Shown: positions 248-7,739 of the stretch, one piece after another
Position numbering within the stretch: the first letter of the stretch is position 1
Layout of the letters: each line of letters begins with the position of its first letter
Origin: Polyangiaceae bacterium
Lineage (GTDB): Bacteria; Myxococcota; Polyangia; Polyangiales; Polyangiaceae
NCBI GenBank assembly: GCA_025936205.1
Contig: JAICTU010000441.1
Span: forward strand, 1-7,739
DNA length: 7,739 nucleotides
Direction of reading: 5' to 3'
Notes under the pieces: model-generated
The model's database searches: none
What the model saw: only the letters and a program-made list of their open reading frames with translations
Told to the model about the DNA's origin: nothing
Position numbers and translations under genes: made by a program

Positions 248-1207
248 ATGAAGCGCATGAATCCCGAGCGGCTCGCAGAGCTGGTTCTGGCACGGCTCGC
301 TTGCGGCGAGCGCACACGCGAGGCGGATGCGAGCAGAGCGCTCTACACCCTGGTGAAGCGTGACTGCAGTGCCAGCGAATGGAAGGAGCTGTTTTTGAGC
401 GCTCTAGCTGAGCTGCGCAGCTCCGGCGATGTGGACGCCGACAAGCTCGCCTTGACCTCCCGAGGCCGGACGCGCCTGGCGCAGGCGTTGGGGCTGCGCT
501 CCTTGCCGGCGGCACTGAGCTGGGACCGGTTTCGCAGCAAGTACCTGCCACGGTTGTTTCTGGAGCTGCCCGAGTCCAGCGCGGCGCCGAACTGCGCGGC
601 CGCCATACTCGCCAAACGGCTGGGAGTACCCTACGACGGACGCAGCACGCCGGCGCATGTCGCCGACACCTGGCTCGCCAGCATGCTCAGCCTGGAGAAG
701 CTGAGCCTCGACCAGATCCGCAAGAAGCTCCTCGCGAGCGAGCTGGGGCTGCCAGATCGGCGCAATTCAGCGGAGCTGCTCCGCCTGGCTGCAACCCAGC
801 TCGCCGATGCGCCAAAAGGCGATGCGGAGAGCGTGCGCAATGCGCTGGCTCGGCGCTGGCTGCTCGAGGGCGACGCGCAACCCCGCGGCAGCTCCCCGCC
901 CCAGCAAGCGCTCGGGCACTTCGTGCGCCGCGTACAGCAGGCCGCCGACAGCCCGCAGGCGCGCCACTTCGGCCCCGAGAAGGTCTTCATCGGCTCCGTC
1001 TGGCAGGCGCTGGCAAGCGAGCCCGACATGGCCCGGCTCGGGGAAGAGGGTTTCAAGCGCTTGCTGGTCGAAGCGCACCGCAGCGGCTCGCTGGTGCTCG
1101 CCCGCGCGGACCTGGTTGCCGCCATGGATCCGCGCGACGTGCGCTCGTCCGAGACCAAACATCACAACGCCACCTATCATTTCATTCAGCGAGGACAGCC
1201 GGCATGA
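248..1207 (+). CDS. Predicted winged-helix partner protein of the double ATPase
   Basis: This 319-residue soluble protein has no signal peptide or membrane segment. I recognise no named family. Residues about 8-80 are helical and end in LALTSRGRTRL (67-77), which resembles the wing of a winged-helix domain ('LT..Gr.rl'). A middle helical region (about 90-225) follows. Residues about 241-315 form a second compact unit: FGPEKVFIGSVW (241-252), a recognition-like segment FKRLLVEAHRSGSLVLARAD (269-288) and an ending ATYHFI (308-313), again winged-helix-like. Two such ends suggest a nucleic-acid-binding adaptor or a subunit contacting the ATPase; this is inference. The ATG at 248 was chosen because GAAGG (234-238) lies 9 bases upstream; an in-frame ATG at 257 is the alternative. 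The stop overlaps the next start as ATGA (1204-1207), so the two products are probably made in fixed proportion and work together. Confidence 0.85.
   Translation: MKRMNPERLAELVLARLACGERTREADASRALYTLVKRDCSASEWKELFLSALAELRSSGDVDADKLALTSRGRTRLAQALGLRSLPAALSWDRFRSKYLPRLFLELPESSAAPNCAAAILAKRLGVPYDGRSTPAHVADTWLASMLSLEKLSLDQIRKKLLASELGLPDRRNSAELLRLAATQLADAPKGDAESVRNALARRWLLEGDAQPRGSSPPQQALGHFVRRVQQAADSPQARHFGPEKVFIGSVWQALASEPDMARLGEEGFKRLLVEAHRSGSLVLARADLVAAMDPRDVRSSETKHHNATYHFIQRGQPA
1191..1194 (+). promoter_or_regulatory. Ribosome binding site of the double-ATPase gene
   Basis: GAGG inside the end of the upstream gene lies 9 bases before the ATG at 1204. With the ATGA stop/start overlap it fixes the start of the large gene and points to coupled translation. 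Confidence 0.5.
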
Positions 1208-4200
1208 GCGACACGCTTCCCTTCTCCACGGCCAAGATCGAAGGCCTCGCGCGCTCGATCGAGGAGATCATGGACGCGGAGAACCCCGCGCAGATCATCG
1301 GCAAGGATCTGACGCAGCTCGCTGCGCGCATCCCCTCGGAGCAACAAGTGACCCCCGGCGCCGTGGTCCGGCTGTCGCTGCTGAACGACACGCTGTGCCT
1401 GGCCGAACGCGCGATCAAGACCGATGGCTTGGTGAGCGCCGCCGAGCTCGACTACGTGGGTCCGCTGGTGGGCGAGACCCAGAAGTACCTGGGCCGCTTC
1501 CGCGAGCTGTATCGAGACGTGGACGCGGCCGGCGAGCACGGTGTGCGCCACTTCCTCGAGCAACACGCGAGCGACGGCCAGAAGTTCGGCGGGCGCTGCA
1601 AGAGCACGGCCTGGATCGGGCTCTCGCTCTGCCAGCGCGCCGCGCAGCTCACCGGCGACCAACATTTCGTCGAAGATTACCGCGACCTGGTGGTCCGCAT
1701 GCTCGACGATCTGTTCGGCGACATCGGCTCCGGCAACGACAGCGACAAGCAGGCGGTGGTCCAGGAGCTGAACCGCCTGGCCCCGCCGGTCGCGCCCGAG
1801 GCGGACCTGCGCGAGCTCGCCTACTGCTCGGCGAGCTCGCCCGAGGTCTTCCATGCGGTGGCCCACGGCGCCGACGTGTTCGAGCCCGACCCACTGGACG
1901 TGGAGAAGATCCACGCGGAAGCCCGCGCGAGCTTCTCGCGCTTGTTGCAGCGCGCCAGCGACGCCAGCCACGGCAGGATGTTGCTGGTGAAGGGCGTGGC
2001 CGGCAGCGGCAAGACGCACCTGATGCGCGCCTTCCGCAATCACGTGCATGGCGGCGAGCTCGGCTTCGTCGCTTACCTGCAAATGTCGACCCGGGTGGCG
2101 AACTATGCGCGCTACGTGCTCGCCAACCTGATCGACTCCTGGGACCGCCCCTACTACGGCAACGTGATCCCCGACCCGGCGATCACCTGCCTCTCCGACT
2201 CGCTGGTGCGCGACCTACCACGCGAAGCCGGCGAGCAGCTGCGCTCGGAGGCGCCCACGGACAGCGAGCTGGACCTGCTGGTCAACCGCAGCGCCGATCG
2301 GCTGCTTTCGATCCGCAAATACAAGGACCTGAACGTCGACCTGCTGCGCGCGCTCTTGTATCTGCAGCGCCGCGATCCCCCGCGCCGCGCACGCGTGCTC
2401 AAATTCCTGCGCTGCGAGCCCTTCAGCCCCTACGACCGCCAGCTGCTCGGCGGCGTGACCGCGCCCGAAGACGAGCACGCCCCCTCGCGCATGCTCGCGG
2501 AGCTCGGCAAGCTGGTGGCCGCGACGGGCAACGGCTCGCTGGTGCTGCTCGTGGATCAGCTCGAGGATATCTACCACCTGGATGAGAGTCCCCACCGCTT
2601 TCAAGTGGCGATGGACGAATTGCGGCACATCACCGACCACGTGCCGACCTCGATCGTCGTGATCGCCTGCCTCGACGATTTCTATACACACCTGAGCAGC
2701 TCGCTCACCAAATCGATGCTCGATCGCCTGGAGCACGATCCCGATCCGGTGACCTTGACCGCGAGCCGTAGCCGCGACGAGATCGAGGAGATCATCGAGC
2801 CGCGCCTGCAGCGCTTGTTCGAGCACCACGCGGTGCGCATCCGCGAAGACCAGCCGCTCTTCCCGTTCAGCAACGCCGAGCTGGACGCGCTCGTCAACCA
2901 GCGCACGCGCGACGTGCTGGAGTGGTGCCGGGCACACCACGACGCCAGCGTGCGCGCCGGCAAGATCCAGGCGCCGAGCACCAAGCCCTCCGCGCCCAGC
3001 CTGGGCCAGGCATCGGATCTGCTGAACCTGGCGCAGGAGTGGAACGACTTCTGGCCGAGTAGCTCCGGCACTCCGCAGGACGAGCCCGAGATGCTGCAGC
3101 TGATCGCCTGGGCGCTCGACCATGTCGGCGACGAGCTGCCCAGCAACGAGATCGCGGCGCGAGCTCAGGGCAATTACGTCTCCACCGACTCCGGCGCCGC
3201 CAAGCTGGTGGTCGGCTTGTGCGACAAGCCGCCGCAGGGCGGCGCATTGGGCAAGCAGGTCGACGCCCTGCGCGAACAAGCCAGCTCCAGCCGGGCCGTG
3301 CCGGTCGCGCTGCGCAGCTCCGAGTATCCCCGCCCCGGCGTGAGCCAGGTGTCTCAGAAGCTGAAGGGCTTGCTGCAAGATGGCGGCCGGCGCGTGGTCA
3401 TCACCGATACCGAGTGGCGCCGCCTGCACGCACTGCGCGGCTTCATGAGCCAGCGCCCGGATACGCCGGAGATGAAGGCCTGGCTGCAGCAGGATCGCCC
3501 GCTGCTCGGCGTCTCGGCCATCCGCGAGATCCTGAATCTCGATGGCGAGGCAGCGCCGCCCGCCAGCCCGCCGAAAGCAACCCACGCAGCCGAGCGCCGG
3601 CCCTCGCCCCTGCCGCCTGCGCCCCTGGCGACGCCCGCGAACGACACCGAGCCGACCGGCGCCAGCTTCGTGATCGGTCAGACCCGCGCGCTCTCACCCA
3701 AGCCCGTCACTGCCTCTGCAGCAGACTACGTGACGCACGCTGCGTTCCTCGGCTCTCCAAAGAGCGGCAAGACTACGCTCGCACTCAACATCCTGGAGCA
3801 GCTGCTGGCGCGCCAGGTGCCCGTGTTGATGATCGACCGCAAGGGCGACCTGTGCCGCTACGGCGCTCCCGAATTCTGGCGCGAGCCCGTCGCGGACCGC
3901 GAGCTCGGGGCGCGCAAGGCCCGACTCCAGCAAGCCCTCGACGTGCGGGTCTATACGCCCGGCGAGCCGCGCGGGCGCGGCCTGGATCTGCCGGTGATCC
4001 CCTCGGGCATGCAGGAGCTGCCCGCCCACGAACGCGGCATCGCCGCCCAGTCGGCAGCCTCGGCGCTGGGCTCGATGATGGGCTACGGCAAGTCCCAGGC
4101 CGATCGCACGCGGCTCAGCATCCTCGGCAAGGCGATCGAGCTGGTGGGCCAGAGCAGCTCGGCGCAAGCGCTGGGCATCCCGCAGCTGGTGAGCCTGCTG

Positions 4201-4929
4201 GACGACGAAGATCCGGATCTGGTGAACGCCGTCGGCAAGCTCGACCCACGGCACTTCCGCGCGCTGGTCGAAAACCTGGAGACGCTGCGCCTACGCCACG
4301 ACCATCTGCTCCGCAACGACAGCGAGCGGCTCGCGCCGGAAGACCTGTTCGGCAAGGCAGCGCGCTCCGGTCGCACGCGCCTGTCGGTGATCAGCAGCAA
4401 GTTCATCGGTGACAACTCGGCGGTCGACTTCTGGGTCGCGCGCTTGCTGGGCGAGCTCGCACGCTGGGCGAGCCGCAACCCCTCGGATGCGCTGCAGGGT
4501 GTGCTGTTCCTGGACGAGGCGGACATCTACTTGCCGGCGCAGAGCAAGCCCGCCACCAAGGAGCCCCTGCTCGACCTGCTCAAGCGCGGCCGCTCCGCGG
4601 GTCTCGGTGTGTTCCTGGCCACGCAGAGCCCGGGCGACCTCGACTACCGCTGCCGCGACAATATCCGCAGCTGGTTCGTGGGCAGAGTCGCGGAGAAGAC
4701 CGCCGTCGACAAGATGAAGCCGCTGCTCTCGGAGAGCCGCATCAACGTCGGCTCGAAGCTGGCGCTGGCCAAGACCGGCGAGTTCTTCCGGCTGGAGGAG
4801 GGCGAAGTGCTGGAATTCAAGGCCACCGTATCGCTGCTCGCCACGAGCCAAGTGCCTGAGGAGGAGATCCTGAAGCTGGCGGCCCTGGGCGCCCAAACCT
4901 CGGCGAACGCTCAGGGTGCAAAGCGCTGA
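1204..4929 (+). CDS. Double P-loop ATPase: TerB-like + AAA/STAND-like + HerA/FtsK-like
   Basis: This 1241-residue cytoplasmic protein has two independent NTPase modules. Residues about 50-175 are helical with a TerB-like signature, AERAIKTDGLVSAAE (67-81, D74 and E81 being the typical acidic positions). Module 1 (about 235-560) has Walker A GVAGSGKT (264-271), Walker B LVLLVDQLED (446-455) and a sensor-like strand IVVIACLDD (484-492), as in AAA/STAND ATPases; the A-to-B distance of about 180 residues is long. Residues about 635-775 are an alpha/beta region of unknown fold, followed by a Pro/Ala-rich linker (about 783-819). Module 2 (about 825-1240) is HerA/FtsK-like: Walker A GSPKSGKT (850-857), the downstream IDRKGD motif (877-882), Walker B VLFLDEAD (1100-1107), a possible arginine finger in KRGRSAG (1127-1133) and the ATQ sensor (1139-1141). 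HerA-type motors form hexamers that move on DNA, so a DNA translocase role is likely for module 2; module 1 may regulate or load it. Both P-loops look intact. No nuclease motif was recognised. The BREX, Dpt/Dnd and HerA-effector families are comparisons only. Confidence 0.9.
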   Translation: MSDTLPFSTAKIEGLARSIEEIMDAENPAQIIGKDLTQLAARIPSEQQVTPGAVVRLSLLNDTLCLAERAIKTDGLVSAAELDYVGPLVGETQKYLGRFRELYRDVDAAGEHGVRHFLEQHASDGQKFGGRCKSTAWIGLSLCQRAAQLTGDQHFVEDYRDLVVRMLDDLFGDIGSGNDSDKQAVVQELNRLAPPVAPEADLRELAYCSASSPEVFHAVAHGADVFEPDPLDVEKIHAEARASFSRLLQRASDASHGRMLLVKGVAGSGKTHLMRAFRNHVHGGELGFVAYLQMSTRVANYARYVLANLIDSWDRPYYGNVIPDPAITCLSDSLVRDLPREAGEQLRSEAPTDSELDLLVNRSADRLLSIRKYKDLNVDLLRALLYLQRRDPPRRARVLKFLRCEPFSPYDRQLLGGVTAPEDEHAPSRMLAELGKLVAATGNGSLVLLVDQLEDIYHLDESPHRFQVAMDELRHITDHVPTSIVVIACLDDFYTHLSSSLTKSMLDRLEHDPDPVTLTASRSRDEIEEIIEPRLQRLFEHHAVRIREDQPLFPFSNAELDALVNQRTRDVLEWCRAHHDASVRAGKIQAPSTKPSAPSLGQASDLLNLAQEWNDFWPSSSGTPQDEPEMLQLIAWALDHVGDELPSNEIAARAQGNYVSTDSGAAKLVVGLCDKPPQGGALGKQVDALREQASSSRAVPVALRSSEYPRPGVSQVSQKLKGLLQDGGRRVVITDTEWRRLHALRGFMSQRPDTPEMKAWLQQDRPLLGVSAIREILNLDGEAAPPASPPKATHAAERRPSPLPPAPLATPANDTEPTGASFVIGQTRALSPKPVTASAADYVTHAAFLGSPKSGKTTLALNILEQLLARQVPVLMIDRKGDLCRYGAPEFWREPVADRELGARKARLQQALDVRVYTPGEPRGRGLDLPVIPSGMQELPAHERGIAAQSAASALGSMMGYGKSQADRTRLSILGKAIELVGQSSSAQALGIPQLVSLLDDEDPDLVNAVGKLDPRHFRALVENLETLRLRHDHLLRNDSERLAPEDLFGKAARSGRTRLSVISSKFIGDNSAVDFWVARLLGELARWASRNPSDALQGVLFLDEADIYLPAQSKPATKEPLLDLLKRGRSAGLGVFLATQSPGDLDYRCRDNIRSWFVGRVAEKTAVDKMKPLLSESRINVGSKLALAKTGEFFRLEEGEVLEFKATVSLLATSQVPEEEILKLAALGAQTSANAQGAKR

Positions 4930-4963
4930 CCGGACGGGTAGACTGGAGGCGCAGGGGGGGAAC

Positions 4964-5920
4964 GTGAACGACGCAGCCGGAGACTTGGCAAGGCGCGCAG
5001 GAGGCTGGCGGAGCTGGAAGCCGAGGTCCGGGCCGCGCGCCCCCGCGAGCTGCTCTTTTCTCACGCCATCGATCTGCTGTGCGTCGCGGGGGGGAAGATG
5101 GCTACTTCAAAGAGCTCAATGCAGCCTGGGCCGACGTCCTCGGCTGGAGCCTGGAGGAGCTCACTGCGTCGCGCTTCATCGACTTCGTGCACCCCGAAGA
5201 TGCGGCAGCGACGCTGGCGGCGGCGCAGAGCCTCGCAGCGGGAGCGACGCTGACCAGGTTTCGCAACCGCTATCGGCGCCGCGATGGCAGCTATCGCTCG
5301 CTCTCGTGGAATGCGGTGTTCGACCGCGACGCGCGGCAAATTCTCGCGGTCGCGCGCGATGAGACCGATGCCGTTCTGACACGCCAGGCGCTCGAAACGA
5401 GTAAAGCCGCGTACGCTCAGCTCTTCAACGGTCACGCTCGACGGGTTCTCGTTTCACGACATGATCTTCGACGAGCGAGGCAATCCGGCAGACTACCGAT
5501 TCCGCGCCGTCAATCCGGCCTTCGAGGAAATGACGGGACTGAAGGCGCACGATCTCGTCGGCCGTCGCGTACTCGAAGTTCTACCAGGCACGGAGAAGCA
5601 CTGGATCGACGTCTTCGGAGGCGTCGCCAAGACGGGCGCGCCCATCCGTTGCGAGAACTACTCGCAGGCATTCGACAAGTGGTTCGAAGTCCTCGCCTTC
5701 CGTCCGGCAGAGGGGCATCGGTAACATCGAGCTCGCGCAGGAGGACGTGACTCGCGATCCGGAGGGAGCGCGTCGGGATCGATCGTGGTGATAGTGGCTT
5801 CGGCGACAGCAGGCTTCCGTCCAACCTGGGCGACGCTCATTCGACCTTCTGGGCAAGCCCTTTGGAAAGCGCGAGCTGAGGAGCGCGTTGCGCAGGGTTC
5901 TCGAGACCCACCCGGCGTAG
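4964..5920 (+). pseudogene. Decayed PAS-domain hybrid sensor histidine kinase
   Basis: Pieces of one sensor kinase lie in order but in different frames. A GTG at 4964 (G-rich stretch just upstream) opens VNDAAGDLA. The frame then changes, and 5002-5094 reads RLAELEAEVRAARPRELLFS and on to DLLCVAG, the usual coiled-coil lead-in to a PAS domain. At the G7 run (5088-5094) it changes again: 5094-5432 gives EDGYFKELNAAWADVLGWS, HPEDAA and YRRRDGSYRSLSWN, a full PAS/PAC domain. An extra base near 5433 moves to the third frame, where TLDGFSFHDMIFDERG (from 5434) starts a second PAS domain ending in FRPAEG at 5715. The next frame gives IGNIELAQEDVTRDPE (5717-5764), like the HisKA region just after the phospho-His helix of hybrid kinases, and 5849-5917 gives LGKPFGKRELRSALRRVLE, the last strand-loop and helix of a receiver domain, ending at TAG 5918. 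The phospho-acceptor His, the ATPase domain and most of the receiver are missing. The product cannot signal; homopolymer sequencing errors could explain some shifts but not the large loss. Confidence 0.8.
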
Positions 5921-6000
5921 CCGGTGCTCTGGCTTGGCAGGCGCTGCTTGCCTCTGCACGCACCTTGCGTCACCCTAACGGCAACACGGTGGCTGAACGG

Positions 6001-6789
6001 ATGACTTTGCTGGGCACGCTCTCGCGCATCGCTAGCGCCGTTTGCTCACTGGCCGTGCTGGCGGCCTGGTGTTCCTGCGGGGGTTCGTCCGGGCCGGGCT
6101 TGCGCGGGCAGCTCTCCGGGCGAACCTTCTTGCTCGACTCCGCGCAGGGCTTCACCCCCGTCGCACAGACCACCGTCCGGCTCAGCTTCGAGGAAGCGCA
6201 GATCCGCTTTTCCGCCGGCTGCAACTCGTTCAGCGGCTCGTACTCGCTGTGCGGCGACGCTCTGTGCGTGCAGGCGCTCGGGTCCACGGAGATCGGCTGC
6301 GCAGCGCAGCTGCAAGCGCAGGATCAATGGCTGGCAGATTTTCTGACGGCTCGCCCGGGCCTGAGCCTGGACAGTGTTCAACTGACATTGAGCGGCGCTG
6401 ACGCGACGCTCGCCTTTCTCGAGCGCGAGGTCGCGGATCCGGATCGTGCGCTCACCGGCAGAGTCTGGAACATCGATACGTTGATCGACGGTGACAGCGC
6501 CAGCAACATCCCGCTACCGGTCAGCCCCACCGTGAGTTTCGATGACGTCGGCTCCGTCCAGATCTTCACCAGCTGTAACAGGGGGGCCGGCAGCTACACG
6601 CGCCAGGCAGACCAGCTCCGGTTCTCGGGCATCGTGTACAGCCAACAGCCTTGTTCCAGCTCCAGCTCGGCCGCCGCGGAGGCGCACATCCAACGCGTGC
6701 TGAGCGACGGCACGCTCACGGCGCAGATCGAAGCTTCGAGGCTCACCCTGACGCGCGACGATGTCGGCCTGAGCGCGACAACCGAGTGA
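6001..6789 (+). CDS. Probable lipoprotein with two META (HslJ-like) domains
   Basis: The 262-residue product starts with a hydrophobic signal peptide (about 1-26), ending in a cysteine pair, AAWCSCGG (21-28). C24 or C26 could be lipidated, but neither has a textbook lipobox (W or S at -1 with unusual -3 residues), so lipidation is uncertain while export is likely. Two tandem META-type domains follow. The first (about 37-140) has SAGCNSFSGSY (71-81) and a later TEIGC (96-100), as in the family's GCN...TxxxC pattern. The second (about 148-255) has TSCNRGAGSY (190-199) and QQPC (215-218), a diverged copy. META/HslJ proteins are small envelope beta-domains linked in E. coli to novobiocin resistance and heat shock; the role here is unknown. 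The ATG at 6001 has GGTGG (5987-5991) upstream; the open frame extends left to 5785 but that part overlaps the dead kinase. The stop overlaps the next gene's GTG. Confidence 0.8.
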   Translation: MTLLGTLSRIASAVCSLAVLAAWCSCGGSSGPGLRGQLSGRTFLLDSAQGFTPVAQTTVRLSFEEAQIRFSAGCNSFSGSYSLCGDALCVQALGSTEIGCAAQLQAQDQWLADFLTARPGLSLDSVQLTLSGADATLAFLEREVADPDRALTGRVWNIDTLIDGDSASNIPLPVSPTVSFDDVGSVQIFTSCNRGAGSYTRQADQLRFSGIVYSQQPCSSSSSAAAEAHIQRVLSDGTLTAQIEASRLTLTRDDVGLSATTE

Positions 6790-7739
6790 ACAGAGACGGC
6801 AGAATTGACGCAGCGGCACTCCGCCGCGCCCAACCCGCGCTGCGTGTCGCACTCGTCCTCGCTTGCCTGGGGGTAGCGAGCGCGCTCATCTTGTGGCCTC
6901 TCACCGGGCCCGATTGGATCATCGGCCACAACGAGGGGATGCGCTATCTGGCGCTGGCCGAGCATTTCCAGCGCGTGTTGCGCTGGACGGCGTCGTACCC
7001 GCGCTGGCTCCCGGAGCTGTACGGCGGCCACGGCTACCCGACGTTCGTCTTCTACCAGCCACTCGTGTTCTTCCTGGACACGCTCTGGCGCTCCGCCTTT
7101 CCGGGCGCCCGCGCGCTCTGGGCCACGCTCTGGACGCTCCTGGTCCTGGGTGGCTCGGGTGCCTACCTGCTGGGCCGGCGCTCGGGAGGGCGGGTCTGGG
7201 GGCTGTGCGTGGCCGGCGTCTTCCTGCTCTCACCGTATCTCTACGTCGATCTGTTCGTGCGGCAGGATCTGAGCGAGCTCAGCGGCTCGATGCTCTTGCC
7301 CTGGGCGCTCTTCAGCCTGCTGCTCGTGCACGACCGCCGCACGGTGGGCGCGGTGGGCCTGCTGTCGCTGTCGCTGGCCGCGCTGATCTACGCGCACCCC
7401 ATCATCGCCCTGCTGGCCTCACTGTTTCTCTCGCCCATCGCCGCAGCGCTGTGCTTTCGCGAGGGTCAGCTCGATCGGAAGGTGGCAGCGCAGCTGGCGC
7501 TCGGCGCCGTGCTCGCCCTGCTGCTCAGCGCACCCTATTGGCTGCCCTTCGTCTCGATGCAGGACGAGGTCAATCTGCAGCACGTGGTGGGTGACGGCGC
7601 ACGTCACCACACCGTTTACTGGTCCCAGTTCTTCGATCGCACCTGGGGCTTCGGCGGGTCGCTGCCCGATACCGCAGCCGACCAGATGTCCTTTCAGCTC
7701 GGCGCGCCGCACTTCGCGCTGGCGCTCGGCGCGGCGCTG
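6786..7739 (+). CDS. Polytopic membrane protein, GT-C / PTPS_related-like (partial)
   Basis: A frame with no stop runs from GTG 6786 to the window edge (318 codons seen, 3' end missing). The GTG overlaps the lipoprotein stop as GTGA (6786-6789); no good Shine-Dalgarno is seen, so translation is probably coupled. The first membrane helix is about residues 18-39, followed by a periplasmic-side loop with DWIIGHNEG (43-51) whose acidic residues resemble the first-loop Asp/Glu of GT-C glycosyltransferases. YPRWLPELYGGHGYPTFVFY (71-90) is characteristic of the membrane proteins Pfam calls PTPS_related (6-pyruvoyl-tetrahydropterin synthase related). Further hydrophobic segments lie around 107-128, 136-158, 165-182, 188-215 and 228-250, and RQDLSELSG lies before one of them. 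Such proteins are thought to transfer sugars from lipid carriers at the cytoplasmic membrane; the substrate cannot be told. Other frames here, including one of about 240 codons at 6863-7594, lack hydrophobic pattern and are not genes. Confidence 0.85.
   Translation, partial: MNRDGRIDAAALRRAQPALRVALVLACLGVASALILWPLTGPDWIIGHNEGMRYLALAEHFQRVLRWTASYPRWLPELYGGHGYPTFVFYQPLVFFLDTLWRSAFPGARALWATLWTLLVLGGSGAYLLGRRSGGRVWGLCVAGVFLLSPYLYVDLFVRQDLSELSGSMLLPWALFSLLLVHDRRTVGAVGLLSLSLAALIYAHPIIALLASLFLSPIAAALCFREGQLDRKVAAQLALGAVLALLLSAPYWLPFVSMQDEVNLQHVVGDGARHHTVYWSQFFDRTWGFGGSLPDTAADQMSFQLGAPHFALALGAAL

Follow-up and report, generated by a model that had tools for sequence, protein, structure and literature searches.

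A two-gene locus with a headed ORC/Cdc6-HerA double ATPase in a Polyangiaceae bacterium, a probable branch of the HerA/FtsK capture systems

The 7,739-nucleotide stretch at positions 1 to 7,739 of contig JAICTU010000441.1 (Polyangiaceae bacterium, assembly GCA_025936205.1), hereafter the window, carries on its forward strand a two-gene unit, consisting of a gene for a partner protein of 319 amino acids (aa; 248-1207) and a gene for a double ATPase of 1241 aa (1204-4929). The ATPase joins an ORC/Cdc6-type AAA+ domain to a HerA/FtsK-type motor behind an all-helical, putatively TerB-like head. Here we report the features of this locus. It probably represents, among the HerA/FtsK capture systems of ORC/Cdc6 type, a TerB-headed branch of two genes, beside which no nuclease gene was found, and probably acts by the mechanism proposed below. 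The class itself is already known under that name (PMC10853773); new are the headed branch with its partner, beside which no nuclease gene was found at either of the two readable loci, and the exchange of one nuclease module for another between relatives.

Locus and protein features

The ATPase gene was identified by Pfam and by homologue search and is a single uninterrupted open reading frame (ORF), in agreement with the first-pass annotation, which had described one polypeptide at 1204-4929. The ORC/Cdc6-type AAA+ domain spans residues 205-606 (1816-3021), with a first Walker A motif, GVAGSGKT, at residues 264-271 (1993-2016) and a first Walker B motif, LVLLVDQLED, at residues 446-455 (2539-2568), and an ORC-like fold is seen in the predicted structure. 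The HerA/FtsK-type motor occupies residues 823-1241 (3670-4926), with a Walker A motif, GSPKSGKT, at residues 850-857 (3751-3774) and a Walker B motif ending in LDEAD at residues 1100-1107 (4501-4524). The GKT and the acidic Walker B residues are kept in both motors of all 25 aligned ATPases, the window's included, and the first consensus G of Walker A is replaced by A in the first motor of one relative, L014, and in the second motor of another, L010. The earlier claims that both Walker A/B pairs are complete, and that the protein is a double motor rather than a relic, are borne out by these intact P-loops.

Pfam matches above the cut-off were AAA_16 (1.3e-12), AAA_22 (6e-10), nSTAND1 (8e-8), HerA_C (4e-6) and AAA (1.3e-5), while BrxC_BrxD (6e-4) and DUF87 (6.5e-4) fell below it. 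The motor was also matched by the PADLOC model mad8 (3.3e-21 over residues 833-1194), by HerA models and by HerA chains of the PDB (E 0.0014-0.0017). Two components of the capture class, an AAA+ domain of the ORC/Cdc6 family and a HerA/FtsK ATPase with intact Walker motifs, are present.

Between them, residues 627-750 (3082-3453) form a candidate inactive restriction endonuclease (REase)-like domain, judged from the secondary structure of the AlphaFold2 model (H-EEE-H-E-H-E-H), whose third strand lacks (D/E)xK in the 25 aligned rows. A profile search of the PDB returned no REase, only unrelated weak matches (best E 0.021), and no REase chain was among the 50 model matches listed, where the AAA+ domain dominates.

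The head of the headed branch comprises residues 1-200 (1204-1803), which are all helical in the AlphaFold2 model. Its TerB-like part is a single helix pair with an ADGxxSxxE-like motif at residues 66-97 (1399-1494), aligned by hhalign to 16 TerB domains at a probability of 48% and without Pfam support. The score was 31.5, whereas 200 column shuffles reached at most 19.1; this control is lenient because column shuffling destroys helix periodicity too. The probability depends on the rows kept (39 matches, of which 20 were taken and 16 kept), being 0.7% with 20 rows and 14% with 19, both sets including wrongly framed rows. At E<=10, Pfam gave no match to the N-terminus of the window protein, none of 15 N-terminal segments matched TerB, and the head had no PDB sequence match; a TerB chain was likewise absent from the 50 model matches listed. 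The TerB-like N-terminus is the weak part of the first-pass annotation, being suggested by profile alignment, above all 200 shuffles, but not by the Pfam, PDB and single-sequence scans. A head-only search, under length limits that exclude full-length relatives, returned six proteins of 123-261 aa, and in relatives from genomes G002, G011 and G023 the profile match starts only at profile position 184-207.

The partner gene, overlooked when the ATPase gene was first found, overlaps the latter by 4 bp in an ATGA sequence (1204-1207) that contains the partner stop and the ATPase start, and the two genes are conserved together. The partner is probably a small DNA-binding protein, with a winged helix predicted at about residues 1-90; a Foldseek match at E<=0.001 was not found. 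Promoter and terminator scans were empty, and a ribosome-site pattern occurred at chance level.

Gene neighbourhoods

Nine loci of the headless type were compared (L010, L011, L013, L014, L015, L017, L020, L021 and L055), to the exclusion of L012 (AAA part only), L016 (HerA alone), L022 and L023 (fragments from G026) and the remaining plasmid matches. Six of the nine carry a DUF559-type nuclease gene immediately 5' of the gene that occupies the position of the partner, assigned by Pfam in L010 (Tsukamurella), L017, L020, L021 and L055 (Nonomuraea) and by motif only in L011 (Methylobacterium; ORF 4152-5213). At two others, L014 and L015 of one genome, Septu genes lie immediately downstream of the ATPase gene: PtuA (1.4e-82) and an HNH-type PtuB (6.4e-45) at L015, and PtuA (4.7e-90), truncated at the contig end, at L014. 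Because the contigs are cut upstream of the ATPase at L014 and inside it, at the contig start, at L015, a DUF559 gene would be unobservable at both.

Beside the two readable headed loci, the window and L001, Pfam and a DUF559 motif pattern found no nuclease gene. The Pfam scan covered five other ORFs in the window and seven in L001, and the pattern, which finds five of the six known cases (L055 being recognised by Pfam only), had no match in 7.7 kb and 23.7 kb, respectively. PtuA and PtuB gave no covering match in the window pair, and no such family appeared among the window neighbours scanned by Pfam. A divergent gene 5' of the partner is possible, since the window starts 247 bp upstream of it. 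In a neighbourhood survey of the kind that the first-pass annotation proposed as a check on a defence role, nuclease or Septu genes stood beside headless relatives, and genes with no defence annotation beside the two headed loci.

The headed form might belong to the same class and still be degradative, relying on a nuclease whose gene lies at some other site of the genome and for which the head is the docking site. The DUF559-type genes of the six headless-type loci and the PtuA and PtuB of L015 are in keeping with this, as is genome G001, which holds the headed L001 together with the DUF559-bearing headless L017. Set against it is the lack of any DUF559-type motif in both headed stretches, other nuclease families not having been searched genome-wide, and we consider it unlikely.

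Some further features of these neighbourhoods are recorded here. In L010 (3492-12530; record labelled plasmid), a VapB/PIN pair, a cassette of DUF559, 223 aa and ATPase genes and a DEAD-box helicase gene sit between rpsQ and rplN, within a ribosomal-protein gene cluster. The PtuA-like genes of L014 (3482-5593) and L015 (1781-4099) start less than 50 bp after the ORC-HerA ATPase, and their products have about 290 extra N-terminal residues before the PtuA part. These residues match an AAA_22/NACHT P-loop in L014, and weakly so in L015. G001 contains a third form, a standalone HerA-type ATPase of 775 aa adjoining an SRP54-type gene (L016, 4737-7064), and in L001 a TubZ/FtsZ-like GTPase gene with weak C-terminal HEAT-repeat matches (4665-6803) precedes the headed ATPase by about 3 kb. 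The AAA-part-only relative on a Xanthobacter plasmid (L012, 6898-10715) adjoins IS3-type integrase and transposase genes. Downstream of the pair in the window, two PAS-domain pieces in different frames (5079-5750 and 5461-5724) resemble a disrupted PAS protein gene; a META-domain protein gene (6001-6786) and a membrane protein gene with a PTPS_related Pfam match (6786-7739) follow, neither of them tied to the finding.

Distribution and phylogeny

Of 7989 scored matches, 1590 were homologues at E<=1e-3. The 120 best, in a listing that favours full-length matches, include 109 with a query coverage of 95% or more; an organism is named for six of the 120, five from Myxococcota and one from Pseudomonadota. 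At E<=1e-40, any form of the ATPase occurs in 4/24 genomes of the phylum of G001 (3/23 besides this centre genome) and in 3/11 genomes of one order, two of these three being shared with the phylum sample and one being the centre. With the window sequence as query, the head was found in 1/58 and 1/155 genomes in overlapping samples of the same phylum, drawn around G001 rather than around the window's own clade; the carrier in both was G001, known beforehand, and the others gave 0/154, a single-sequence count that may miss distant heads.

The phylogenetic tree was built from 31 rows, including 20 of the 120 listed homologues. All 22 sampled headed rows fall on one side of a branch with support 74/99, present in 70% of bootstrap trees, and a single origin of the head, with no direction of change implied, is favoured though not proven by this sequence tree. 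The six DUF559 rows also group together, with support of only 63/68 and in 59% of bootstrap trees. L017 has a very long branch, and 11 of 28 inner branches are open.

Insights into function

Judged from its relatives, the locus is best read as an anti-invader DNA translocase. In the mechanism that we propose, the partner with its predicted winged helix would act with the ORC/Cdc6 AAA+ domain, which carries the putatively dead REase-like domain, to bind or load onto invading DNA, and the HerA motor would form a ring and translocate that DNA. Headless relatives would then pass it to a nuclease of DUF559 type or to Septu proteins; where a TerB-like head is present, it would replace the nuclease gene as a sensor or docking platform, and the invader would be displaced, blocked or given to a nuclease encoded elsewhere. 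We infer ring formation, translocation, target choice and the role of the head alike. The first-pass annotation had spoken of an uncharacterised DNA-acting, possibly antiphage machine, and is supported in part: a role of this kind would fit, but the class had already been described.

Several observations weigh against this reading. The AAA+ domain is matched equally well by TnsC and by ORC/Cdc6, the second winged helix of the partner (residues 216-316, approximately) is weak and only possible, and residues 782-803 and 808-819, where the class would have a winged helix-turn-helix (wHTH) domain after the dead REase, have a model confidence (pLDDT) below 50. At the headless L013 no nuclease gene was found either, and L015, whose N-terminus is cut off, is taken to be headless because it groups with L013 in the tree (support 98/91). 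A nuclease-free headed branch is thinly based, given two headed loci, few ORFs and a pattern that misses L055. We infer the defence role from relatives, and the genes next to the headed loci bear no defence annotation. In the window these are, downstream, the PAS pieces and the META-domain gene; L001 has a gene for a TubZ-like protein on the upstream side and one for a pullulanase on the downstream side. No homologue was found in 50,697 phage records, none of 57 matched stretches of viral contigs encodes a relative, and three plasmid queries gave 4, 7 and 3 distant records. A plasmid match from Priestia, which belongs to a DptF-DptG locus encoding a DUF87 protein, was not counted as a relative.

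These ordinary surroundings, with few plasmid copies and no phage copies, would suit a housekeeping machine for DNA repair or segregation, comparable to HerA-NurA or FtsK, an explanation made improbable by the patchy occurrence in the phylum as sampled around G001 (head 0/154 and any form 3/23, besides the centre genome) and by the pairing of relatives with two different defence-type modules. It is less probable still that the locus belongs to a mobile element, with the ORC-like domain loading the machinery of transposition or conjugation, as transposase, integrase and relaxase families had no match in the part of the neighbouring ORFs that was scanned at the window, L001, L020 and L021.

Within the reading as an anti-invader capture system, we suggest tentatively, as a possibility well below even chances, that the headed branch is non-degradative, with a TerB-like sensor head in place of the nuclease and ATP-driven stripping, pumping or blocking acting alone. 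If so, the DUF559 nuclease, the Septu module and the TerB head would be interchangeable outputs of one ORC-HerA core. Headed loci with no nuclease gene, headless loci with DUF559 and headless loci with Septu offer a natural comparison, which could tell whether the core itself defends or merely delivers DNA to a cutter, and an ORC-HerA core beside PtuA/PtuB would link Septu to a DNA motor. Among the literature matches listed, no account tied Septu to an ORC-HerA motor.

Comparison with known systems

MADS is a multi-gene set with a methyltransferase. The HerA motor domain resembles its Mad8 component in matching PADLOC mad8, but the motor alone matches, and the other MADS models are without a match in the two genes. 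DndH of DndFGH likewise has a C-terminal HerA/FtsK motor, and the relative L017 matches it at 9.9e-24, whereas the window protein does so only at 0.014 over residues 1100-1166. From BREX BrxC the locus differs in the fusion of HerA within one protein, and BREX families had no match above the cut-off in the window proteins scanned; PMC12839542 describes a BREX-related system likewise using HerA.

Shango pairs a TerB domain with an ATPase and a helicase, and the two genes had no PADLOC match to such a model, of which the library may hold none. The likeness is a TerB-like domain within a defence system, TerB domains being listed for Shango and Bunzi in PMC10952713; PMC7824862 discusses Ter systems in jumbo phages. 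No description of a TerB-headed ORC-HerA fusion was found in the passages and search listings of open-licence papers that were covered, and Figure 7 or the supplements of PMC10853773 may depict one.

The closest comparison is with the capture systems of ORC/Cdc6 type, which PMC10853773 (2024) predicted from gene neighbourhoods as single or multiple polypeptides. They are described there as containing an ORC/Cdc6 AAA+ domain followed by an inserted inactive REase, together with an active REase from one of two families, HerA/FtsK and wHTH domains, some systems having a protein with two to four wHTH. The same text proposes that the ORC part positions the apparatus on DNA and that HerA/FtsK intercepts or pumps invader DNA, with an active REase "usually" in the neighbourhood. 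The window is a variant rather than a full member because no active REase gene was found at the window or L001. It differs further in its TerB-like head and in the Septu genes beside its relatives, the words "terb", "tellur", "septu" and "ptua" having no occurrence in its text (Figure 7 and supplements aside). It shares with these systems the ORC/Cdc6-like AAA+ domain, the HerA/FtsK motor, the winged-helix partner, a candidate dead REase between AAA+ domain and motor, and the single-polypeptide form. With only two genes, it offers a compact representative of a class that has so far been proposed computationally, in PMC10853773.
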